From an uncultured SAR86 cluster bacterium (lineage in GTDB: Bacteria; Pseudomonadota; Gammaproteobacteria; Magnimaribacterales; Magnimaribacteraceae), in assembly GCA_938048695.1 (NCBI GenBank), contig CALIUO010000002.1, positions 1-53,723 on the forward strand: a stretch of DNA of 53,723 nucleotides, read 5' to 3'. Below are positions 21,215 to 33,643 of the stretch, in pieces. A program made the translations under genes and the position numbers. The first letter of the stretch is position 1; the number at the start of each line of letters is the position of its first letter. The notes beneath the pieces were generated by a model, which worked only from the letters and a program-made list of their open reading frames with translations, made no database searches and had not been told where the DNA came from.

Positions 21215-21990
21215 TATCTTCTTAAGAGAGTTGGCAACACAGGAGTTGTATCTCTGTATTCCTGATACTCAGGATACTTAGCTAATAACTGTCTTTCAAG
21301 AAGTGGGATTAATTTTTTTAAGACGATTAAAAGTAGCATTACAAAACCCATAACTGACCATTGAGAACCAATACCGTTTAATGCAATGAGCTGAAGTCCG
21401 AAGAAAAATAATAAGAGACCAGCTAAGTTTGGATGCCTTAAATAGCTCCATAGCCCAGTTCTAATAAATTTATTTTCATCCTGTTTTGTCTTTTTTATCT
21501 TTCTTTCACAAATAAATTCCATAGCGATTCCAAGGGTACAAAAGGAGATTCCCAAAATATCTAAAAAATTTAATGATGAATAGCCTGATAAATAATTTAA
21601 AGACAGTGCAGAGCTGAAACAGGCAATTTGAATGAAAGAAATCTTTATAGTGTTTATTATGATTATTAAAAATTTCTTTTGATGAATTAAATCACGAATT
21701 GACTCGAGAAATTCTTGAAGTAGAAGTGATTTTATAGAGCTATAGGCATTAAAAGATTTCAAGCACCATGCAATTACTATTAGATTAGAAAATAACTGCC
21801 TTAAAGATATATCTGATATCTCAAATTGTAACTGAATGAATGCGCCTAAAATCAAAGTAAAGAGAACAGGGAAGAAAAGGAACTTCAATAACACTCTTGG
21901 ACTTTTTTTATTGATACTGATGAGGATTAAGCTTATTAATGTTATTGAGTTGAAAGAAAACAAGATTAATAAGTATGCAAAATTTGACAT
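21214..21990 (-). CDS. Membrane methyltransferase/reductase-like protein (DUF1295/ICMT superfamily)
   Basis: A 258-residue protein with about seven membrane helices. The C-terminal half has the hallmark of the isoprenylcysteine methyltransferase / DUF1295 (steroid 5-alpha-reductase-like) superfamily: TGLWSYLRHPNLAGLLLFF followed by LLERQLLAKYPEYQEYRDTTP. The RHPN motif is part of the nucleotide cofactor site in this group. Substrate unknown; linkage to psd hints at lipid modification, but this is inference. A second DUF1295 member with the same RHPN motif is at 43463. Confidence 0.8.
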   Translation of the reverse strand: MSNFAYLLILFSFNSITLISLILISINKKSPRVLLKFLFFPVLFTLILGAFIQLQFEISDISLRQLFSNLIVIAWCLKSFNAYSSIKSLLLQEFLESIRDLIHQKKFLIIIINTIKISFIQIACFSSALSLNYLSGYSSLNFLDILGISFCTLGIAMEFICERKIKKTKQDENKFIRTGLWSYLRHPNLAGLLLFFFGLQLIALNGIGSQWSVMGFVMLLLIVLKKLIPLLERQLLAKYPEYQEYRDTTPVLPTLLRR

Positions 21991-22025
21991 CTTCTAAATT
22001 TTCCTCAAATGACATTTTTTTGGCA

Positions 22026-22054
22026 TTGCAATGAACCTTATTTGTCACTATAGT
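22026..22054 (+). promoter_or_regulatory. Sigma-70 promoter of the TonB2-type operon
   Basis: TTGCAA (22026-22031) and TATAGT (22049-22054) are separated by 17 bp and match the consensus boxes at 4/6 and 5/6 positions. The predicted start is about 22061, a G, which is also the first paired base of the leader structure. The -35 box lies inside a perfect 10-bp palindrome CATTGCAATG (22024-22033), a possible repressor site. It does not resemble a Fur box. Confidence 0.55.
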
Positions 22055-22060
22055 TTAAAC

Positions 22061-22126
22061 GTTCGCACTCGGGGAAGGTGAAATAATGTGCTTGCAAAAC
22101 ACTTAAGTTTCATCTACTTTGCGAAT
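22061..22126 (+). promoter_or_regulatory. Structured 5' leader RNA of the TonB2-type operon
   Basis: Three nested helices can form. P1: GTTCGCA (22061-22067) with TGCGAAT (22120-22126), one G-U. P2: GGTGAAA (22077-22083) with TTTCATC (22108-22114), one G-U. P3: TAA-GTG (22084-22086, 22088-22090, one bulged T) with CACTTA (22100-22105). The apical loop is CTTGCAAAA, and the internal loop holds CTCGGGGAA opposite TACTT. That is 20 pairs in 66 nt, starting at the predicted transcription start. I do not recognise a known riboswitch class. Confidence 0.45.
22086..22106 (+). CDS. Possible six-codon leader peptide (MCLQNT)
   Basis: ATG at 22086 is preceded by GGGGAAGGTGA (22071-22081), one of the strongest ribosome-binding sites in the window, and is followed by five codons and TAA. 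It lies wholly within helices P2/P3 of the leader. Translation would melt those helices, so it could act as a leader ORF or as a decoy site that ties translation to folding. It may also be chance, because short ATG-stop frames are common. Confidence 0.3.
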   Translation: MCLQNT

Positions 22127-22162
22127 AGATTAAATAAGAATTTTAGAAATTAGGAGATAGCT

Positions 22163-22927
22163 ATGACGCGTCTTTGTAAATTTGTTTTCGTGTTGGCCGG
22201 AATTTCAGTTTCGGGCCTTGTGTTTAGTGATCAAATCCAACCTTTATTAGACGTTGGTGCGGCTAGACAAGTTGCCGAGAAAACATCTCAGTCAAAAATC
22301 GATGAAATGGACGAACAGACTTCAGTGATAGTCAGCGAGTTCAAAACAGTCAGTAAACAAATAGAAGGTTTGAGGGTATACAACGCTCAAATGAGACAGC
22401 AAATTCAGCGTCAAGAAGAGCGTTTGAAGGAAATTGATAGAACGCTAAAAGAAGCACAGGTTATGCAGAGACAGATTCCACCATTTACAAGAAGAATGTT
22501 AGCTGGAGTAGAAACTTCTATTGAGCTTGATCTGCCATTTCATTTAGCTGAAAGAAAAGAGCGAATTGCTTTTGCTAAAGCGGCTTTAGATAATCCAACC
22601 GTCTCTCCAGCTGAAGGTTTGAGGCAGGTTTTAGAGGCTTTCAATGTAGAAGCAGAATATGGAAGAAAAATAGATGCTTATAAAGATAGCATTGTTATTA
22701 ATGGTGAGCTAAGAGAAGGTAACATTCTAAGGGTCGGTAGACTGGCAATGGTTTTCCAAACAGCCGATGAAACGCAAACACATGCCTGGAATAATGCTAC
22801 TAGGTCATGGGAAGAACTTGATAATAGTTATAGGAACCCTACAAAGAGAGGCTTAAGAATAGCTAATAAGCTAGCTACAGTTGACTTGATGGAACTTCCT
22901 TTACCAGCAGCAACGGAGGCAAACTAA
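22163..22927 (+). CDS. DUF3450 periplasmic coiled-coil protein of the TonB2-type system
   Basis: A 254-residue exported protein with a signal peptide (about 1-22, ending near LVFSD). Residues about 35-105 form a long coiled coil (ARQVAEKTSQSKIDEM... to ...KEIDRTLKEA), followed by a globular part. DUF3450 proteins are encoded first in many gammaproteobacterial TtpC-ExbB2-ExbD2-TonB2 operons and probably act with TtpC in the periplasm; the molecular role is not established. AGGAGA precedes the ATG. The upstream leader (22061-22162) is about 100 nt long. Confidence 0.85.
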   Translation: MTRLCKFVFVLAGISVSGLVFSDQIQPLLDVGAARQVAEKTSQSKIDEMDEQTSVIVSEFKTVSKQIEGLRVYNAQMRQQIQRQEERLKEIDRTLKEAQVMQRQIPPFTRRMLAGVETSIELDLPFHLAERKERIAFAKAALDNPTVSPAEGLRQVLEAFNVEAEYGRKIDAYKDSIVINGELREGNILRVGRLAMVFQTADETQTHAWNNATRSWEELDNSYRNPTKRGLRIANKLATVDLMELPLPAATEAN

Positions 22928-33156: not shown

Positions 33157-33643
33157 GCTTTTTATATTTTATATAGAAAGGCAATAAATCACCCAATGCC
33201 TTTCTGTAGGCTTCCCTTTTAAACTCAACCCCTCCACGAATGGGGTGCCAATATGTTGACCAAGTCCATTCAGTAAATTCAATTTGATCATGTAGAGTAA
33301 GATTGATGGCATTATCTTCACCTATAAACTCTGCTAAAAACCACTTTTGAGTTTGGCCTCTAAATTTCCTATTCTTAAGCGAGAAATATTTTGGGATTTT
33401 ATGTTTAGGTACATCATAGTCAATCCATCGATCGTTTTCTTTAATTATCTTTATATGATTTTCTCTAAGCCCAACTTCTTCGTAGGTTTCCCTAAGAATA
33501 GCTTCTTCTGGAGATTCCCCGTCATCTATTCCTCCTTGGGGGAATTGCCACCCATCTCCTGATTTTCTTTTGCACCAGAGCAGTTTGCCCTCTTTATTAA
33601 AAATAATAATTCCTGCATTGGGTCTGTATAATCCATCTTTCAT
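33146..33643 (-). CDS. rppH: RNA pyrophosphohydrolase RppH
   Basis: A 165-residue Nudix hydrolase that removes pyrophosphate from 5'-triphosphate mRNA and so starts RNase E decay. The Nudix box GGIDDGESPEEAILRETYEEVGL spans residues 37-59 with all key glutamates. YRPNAGIII and GWQFPQGG identify RppH among Nudix proteins. Divergent from the HAD gene with 25 bp between start codons, so both promoters must extend into coding sequence. Confidence 0.95.
   Translation of the reverse strand: MKDGLYRPNAGIIIFNKEGKLLWCKRKSGDGWQFPQGGIDDGESPEEAILRETYEEVGLRENHIKIIKENDRWIDYDVPKHKIPKYFSLKNRKFRGQTQKWFLAEFIGEDNAINLTLHDQIEFTEWTWSTYWHPIRGGVEFKREAYRKALGDLLPFYIKYKKLNP

Follow-up and report, generated by a model that had tools for sequence, protein, structure and literature searches.

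A conserved leader hairpin confined to one SAR86 lineage at a TonB2-type operon: a candidate 5'-terminal mRNA stabiliser

The ompA and papA leaders of Escherichia coli are 5'-terminal stem-loops that act as stabilisers of their messages. RppH and RNase E depend on single-stranded 5' ends, and secondary structure at the 5' end stabilises mRNA (PMC3997798). Leaders can also act as premature-terminator attenuators, such as those described in PMC2965389, or be bound by CsrA, such as those of the glgC type described in PMC7652899. As regards the genes themselves, the system to compare is the tonB2 operon of Vibrio, in which ttpB2 is the first gene and ttpD2 the last; TtpB2 is a DUF3450 protein (PMC6957404). 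We consider here an operon of this type in SAR86, bacteria that are among the most abundant of the surface ocean, that long resisted isolation and that are rich in TonB-dependent transporters (PMC11582366). TonB systems energise such transporters, and control of the operon at the RNA level, if true, would offer a way to study how uptake is set in these cells.

The window (the whole stretch of DNA that was analysed, 53,723 nucleotides from an uncultured SAR86 cluster bacterium) carries a TonB2-type operon in which, as in the published description of the Vibrio operon, DUF3450 (TtpB2) leads and is followed by ttpC, exbB, exbD and tonB genes. The upstream neighbour, a DUF1295 gene, is divergent to the DUF3450 operon, and the promoter is therefore directed at the latter.

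22026 to 22054, plus strand: sigma-70-type promoter, TTGCAA-17 nt-TATAGT (pattern match and conservation over 18 genus leaders)
22163 to 22927, plus strand: DUF3450 gene, ttpB2-like, first of the TonB2-type operon (Pfam)
downstream of this gene to 27403, plus strand: genes for a MotA/ExbB-domain protein (ttpC-like by position), ExbB, ExbD, TonB and a TPR protein (Pfam)

The promoter, with its -35 box TTGCAA at 22026-22031, a spacer of 17 nt and its -10 box TATAGT at 22049-22054, is not significant as a pattern match by itself (2 sites found against 3.6 expected in shuffles); it is credible because its boxes are conserved across the leaders of the genus, with 100% identity for the -10 box and 96% for the -35 box over 18 leaders, compared with 66% for the DNA further upstream. 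The 17-bp-spaced promoter of the original prediction is thus borne out. Helix P1 of the leader starts exactly 6 nt past the TATAGT box in 18/18 genus leaders, and from the promoter spacing we infer a transcription start at 22061, so that the hairpin would probably begin at +1. The combined pattern TATARTN12-18GGGGA is not enriched in the 19 genus genomes: counted over both strands, it occurs 101 times and the reversed pattern 156 times. Whereas the Vibrio promoter has a putative Fur box (PMC6957404), none was found over the SAR86 promoter, the best Fur-like 19-mer in 21901-22170 (one strand) reaching only 13/19, at 21913, inside the divergent gene. The same score is reached at 16 places in the window, and a SAR86 Fur box could be degenerate.

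The leader hairpin is composed of the following elements.

22061 to 22126, plus strand: leader hairpin, probably from +1 (MFE fold, conservation, covariance model)
22061 to 22067, plus strand: 5' strand of P1, GTTCGCA, pairing with 22120-22126 (92% of cells paired over 18 leaders)
22071 to 22076, plus strand: junction core, GGGGAA, invariant in 18/18 genus leaders
22077 to 22083, plus strand: 5' strand of P2, GGTGAAA, pairing with 22108-22114 (94% of cells paired)
22088 to 22102, plus strand: P3, apical hairpin with a GCAA loop, weakly conserved and enlarged in seven genus members
22108 to 22114, plus strand: 3' strand of P2, TTTCATC (pairing over 18 leaders)
22114 to 22119, plus strand: 3' side of the junction core, CTACTT (96% identity over 18 leaders)
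22120 to 22126, plus strand: 3' strand of P1, TGCGAAT (pairing over 18 leaders)

The stretch 22061-22126 has an MFE of -18.3 kcal/mol, the mean of its shuffles being -10.3 (1/200 as good), and a z-score of -3.41 that is optimistic as the stretch had been chosen by eye; the stability of the whole leader together with 58 nt of the gene is unremarkable (z -1.17). Three nested helices around a G-rich internal loop had been predicted. P1 and P2, of 7 bp each, stand as claimed; in the MFE fold P3, which had been given 6 bp and a 9-nt loop, consists of 5 bp with one bulge and ends in a loop of 4 nt, and of the three helices it is the one kept least well, with 79% of cells paired. The internal loop also has to be corrected, as it is partly paired in the MFE fold: 22072-22074 pair with 22117-22119, which leaves three of the four Gs predicted paired. 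Among the leaders of the genus (leaders are designated L, genera g and families f), 16/18 fold with a z-score of -2.0 or below, the exceptions being L014 (-1.1), the MFE fold of which lacks P1, and L018 (-0.8); a further weak case is L004, with two broken P1 pairs. Outside the genus, the same threshold is reached by 6/14 scored family leaders, two more having been left unscored.

Pairing is kept across these leaders. In a MAFFT alignment of 18 rows, 92.8% of cells pair, compared with 89.6 +- 0.8 for shuffles (0/500), and pairing drops to 47% or less in slid versions; a one-column slide of the other alignments causes the same collapse. Of five pairing measures, three lie above shuffles in the 18-row alignment, the counts of double-change pairs and of extra pair types being no higher than in shuffles (453 and 462 of 500); all five lie above them in a 24-row alignment that was fitted to the covariance model and hence leans towards structure. 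The latter holds 9 pairs with double changes in 33 cells (shuffles, 11.9 +- 2.5). In the 18 leaders, one pair of P1 shows a C-G/U-A/U-G exchange and one pair of P2 an exchange from A-U to U-A, in 5 sequences. Under a tree-based null, with gaps filled by reconstruction and events placed on the gene tree, 378 leaf cells are paired against 347 +- 11 (0/1000) and 4 compensatory same-branch events are found against 1.2 (30/1000); for the plain 18-row alignment, the corresponding values are 234/252 paired against 225.3 (p 0.014) and 1 compensatory event against 0.09 (p 0.086). RNAalifold finds 14 pairs, 2 with compensation, in the 18 rows and does not recover the helix in the 24-row alignment (-0.34 kcal/mol). 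The compensatory changes on which the original prediction depended are thus present, as a modest signal, and the structure is supported fairly well within the genus and moderately between two genera. These data also bear on the idea that the letters act as a DNA operator over the transcription start, the hairpin being incidental. The 5' arm and junction, at +1 to +16, do adjoin an almost invariant promoter; conservation extends to the 3' arm, located 40-60 nt downstream, and the pairing is kept while the letters differ between the two genera and is lost on the one-column slide, and we consider an operator improbable.

In order to study the distribution of the element, we collected DUF3450 genes from relatives, 59/61 of which have one, including 34/35 genomes of the same family (f1). 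All 34 family leaders were read, and the 18 from the own genus all contain the element. A first covariance model was built from 11 leaders. In 18/19 genus genomes it detects a single strong copy, located ahead of DUF3450, and the seven held-out genus leaders are among those recovered (E 2e-10 to 1e-5); the remaining genus genome is half complete and gave no match to DUF3450. No genus genome has a second strong copy, weaker matches occurring at E 0.009-1. For a second genus, g4, this model finds the element at the operon in 3/6 genomes when searched genome-wide (E <= 1) and at the right place in 6/6 when searched in short loci, and it matches none of the other ten of the 34 family leaders (g2, g3, g5, g6 and g7). 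Of 203 genomes of the order, a second model with g4 included detects 18 of the genus and 5 of g4, together with one weak partial match in family f2 (E 0.0076); with stricter filters, among 274 sampled genomes of the class it matches the own genome and none of the other 273. The pattern TTCGYN1-5GGGGAA has a single match elsewhere in the own genome, antisense inside an RlmB-type methyltransferase-like gene (by eye), and viral contigs gave no exact match to one pattern. The Rfam search proposed with the original prediction yielded nothing in the window above the gathering score; at E up to 10, a chance-level snoRNA nearby (E 8.3) was the only match, and hence no relevant family was identified. 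No leader RNA of this operon is reported among the matches listed from open-access papers. The hairpin is therefore real, conserved across the genus and confined to the lineage, and the element is a lineage-specific new example of an already known type of control element. As a separate observation, a second DUF3450 gene is present at G000:C52:1601-2311 and at G014:C76:1054-1767, with 45-46% identity to the first, which is the level of the family f2 copies; both contigs are short (3.0 and 5.7 kb), so bin contamination is possible.

Over the genus, identity is 100% for GGGGAA and 96% for CTACTT, higher than for P1 (82-83%), P2 (85-89%) and the apical part (71%); the stretch from the Shine-Dalgarno (SD) to the AUG is also 100% identical. 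As the junction is more conserved than the stems, a generic stabiliser is by itself an incomplete reading, and the simplest cause would be sequence-specific reading of the junction by something, beyond folding. Within the family, GGA starts at +11 to +13 in 32/34 leaders and at +9 in L030; L058 has GGGGT at the junction position and no GGA.

A possible reader, albeit a doubtful one, is CsrA/RsmA, a dimer of which would repress translation, as in glgC, by sitting on GGGGA of the 5' hairpin and on AGGAG at the SD. The core motif of CsrA is ANGGA, and the leader does not match it, GG preceding its GGA. Neither does the leader match the SELEX consensus RUACARGGAUGU given in PMC7652899. No parts of the leader are more invariant than the two GGA-containing sites (junction and SD), and glgC-type leaders as described in the same source similarly have one GGA in a 5' hairpin and one in the SD; they differ in that the SAR86 GGA lies outside a hexaloop, without the flanking consensus, and that 80 nt of sequence separate the two sites, compared with the 63 nt quoted there, unless the hairpin brings both together. 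The junction GGA is moreover almost fully paired in 9/9 g4 and g5 leaders (unpaired 0.01-0.05, against 0.18-0.79 in the genus), and L058, lacking it altogether, also argues against CsrA. In a survey of 61 SAR86-order genomes, a CsrA gene is found in 29/35 genomes of the own family (f1) and 9/9 of f3, the operons of which also have a leader of their own, and in 0/9 of f2 and 0/8 of f4; inspection by eye of five leaders of f2 and one of f4 revealed no such element. This presence and absence splits by family and may reflect descent only, which would fit the account in PMC11582366 of four SAR86 families forming two pairs; the own genome (85% complete) gave no match to CsrA. Independently of the leader, the lack of CsrA in f2 and f4, 13/17 of these genomes being more than 90% complete, looks like the loss of a global regulator.

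The invariant junction could also be read by the ribosome, GGGGAAGG being the ribosome site of a short upstream ORF within the hairpin (e.g. MCLQNT) that acts by coupling or stalling. An NTG codon does lie 13-16 nt past the start of GGGGAA in 16/18 genus leaders, and 10/16 of these frames end after six codons. The peptide and its frame are lost across a one-base indel (MCLQNT against LCCKTH), L011 and L018 have no start codon there and none is consistent in the other genera of the family (by eye), all of which makes such an ORF highly unlikely.

The original prediction had gone further and proposed a new cis-regulatory RNA, perhaps sensing a substrate, a metal or temperature. Its first part holds as far as a conserved structured leader, absent from Rfam and with some covariation, is present at one operon; the sensing is unsupported. 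With its internal junction conserved and no Rfam family matching it, the short structured leader is what a riboswitch, or another ligand- or ion-sensing RNA, might look like; such an RNA is nevertheless very improbable here, given the restriction to two genera with a single strong copy in each genome, a single stem without a multi-helix pocket and a leader without terminator, the sole terminator site in 21500-22700 being at 22197, inside the gene. No expression platform was found in the leader: the junction strand pairs with the SD with a probability of 0.000. An anti-SD switch, in which CUACUU would pair with AGGAG as is possible on paper, was accordingly rejected at 10, 25 and 37 °C. An RNA thermometer was also rejected, the MFE fold of the 5' hairpin being unchanged from 4 to 37 °C.

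Our best reading, which we hold tentatively, is that of a 5'-terminal stabiliser hairpin whose junction is the contact site of a putative trans factor. The mRNA of the TonB2 operon would start at the base of an extended, imperfectly paired hairpin made of P1, the GGGGAA/CUACUU junction, P2 and a variable P3, and this base-paired 5' end would hinder both the removal of pyrophosphate by RppH and the tethering of RNase E to the end, which would give a long-lived message of the ompA/papA type. The invariant junction would probably be a specific contact for a putative trans-acting factor tuning protection or translation, and a small second hairpin may mask the SD and damp initiation. The likeness to the ompA and papA stabilisers is that a stem is predicted at, or a few nt from, +1 and that the 5' end would be sequestered; the differences are the sequence-invariant junction of the SAR86 leader and the fact that stabilisation is here a prediction.

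With a start position assumed for each leader, pairing of the six 5'-most nucleotides exceeds the shuffled mean of the same leader in 32/34 family leaders (lower in L007 and L023), and outside the own genus many individual values fall inside the shuffle range. Mean pairing of these nucleotides is 0.84 in the own genus and 0.54 in g4, where 4-7 nt at the 5' end stay unpaired in the MFE folds of L020, L022, L023 and L024; sealing of the end is thus predicted well for the own genus and poorly for the second. Homologues of RppH over the curated cut-off are present in 31/35 family genomes, one of them in the window itself (33194-33640, minus strand, 146 bits, above cut-off, 11 kb from the leader on which it might act), and RNase E/G is over the cut-off in 24/35 family genomes, many of them incomplete, with a model that does not separate E from G. 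Against the stabiliser counts that, in E. coli, only about 10% of the mRNAs are affected when RppH is lost (PMC3997798).

The second hairpin lies at the ribosome-binding site (RBS).

22153 to 22175, plus strand: predicted RBS hairpin, the SD GGAGAT paired with bases of codons 2-5 and the AUG (22163) in the loop (fold)

Over 33 family loci at 20 °C, the pairing probability of the SD is 0.76, compared with 0.50 for synonymous nulls; it is above the null mean in 29/33 loci (lower in L008, L029 and L058, equal in L059), and in 10/33 no more than 5% of the nulls reach its value. Eleven other window genes served as a control; an SD match is present in 4, two of which are as paired (0.82 and 0.94), so a paired SD is by itself nothing exceptional. 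The third codon is CGT in 31/34 loci, and CGT makes up 6/167 Arg codons in 12 window genes; three of these six sit in the DUF3450 gene, which makes codon bias a possible cause of the kept CGT. Pairing of the five paired SD bases decreases only from about 0.84-0.99 at 25 °C to 0.65-0.91 at 37 °C.

A bolder reading, to which we give little credence, is that of a new RNA control of TonB operons, in which a putative protein or metabolite would read the junction and set the lifetime of the mRNA or access to the occluded RBS, beside or instead of Fur. If junction-reading control were true, an abundant lineage of the surface ocean would tune nutrient uptake at the mRNA level. The leader, being short and conserved, is amenable to reporter testing.

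Leaders of the same operon in family f3 have a different organisation. By eye, a promoter-like sequence stands ahead of DUF3450, and in 7/8 leaders read (L060-L062 and L064-L067) a hairpin of -9.6 to -12.0 kcal/mol is followed by a T-rich run, the hairpin of the eighth, L063, being only -2.4. The upstream gene (EF-P-like by eye) is divergent in the four loci checked, three of them among the seven, and the terminator-like hairpin therefore belongs to the operon leader. Its stem shows a compensatory exchange, T-A to C-G, in L065 relative to L064. The hairpin and T-rich run of the f3 leaders resemble premature-terminator attenuators as described in PMC2965389, from which the leader of the window differs by having no T-run after its hairpin; an intrinsic-terminator attenuator was rejected for the latter on this ground (21500-22700 scanned). 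Early hairpins at the DUF3450 operon may thus recur in SAR86 with different outcomes. In genus g2 of the own family, AAACACTGGAACAAATTACT is kept in three of the four leaders (L028, L029 and L056), and occurs twice in L029.
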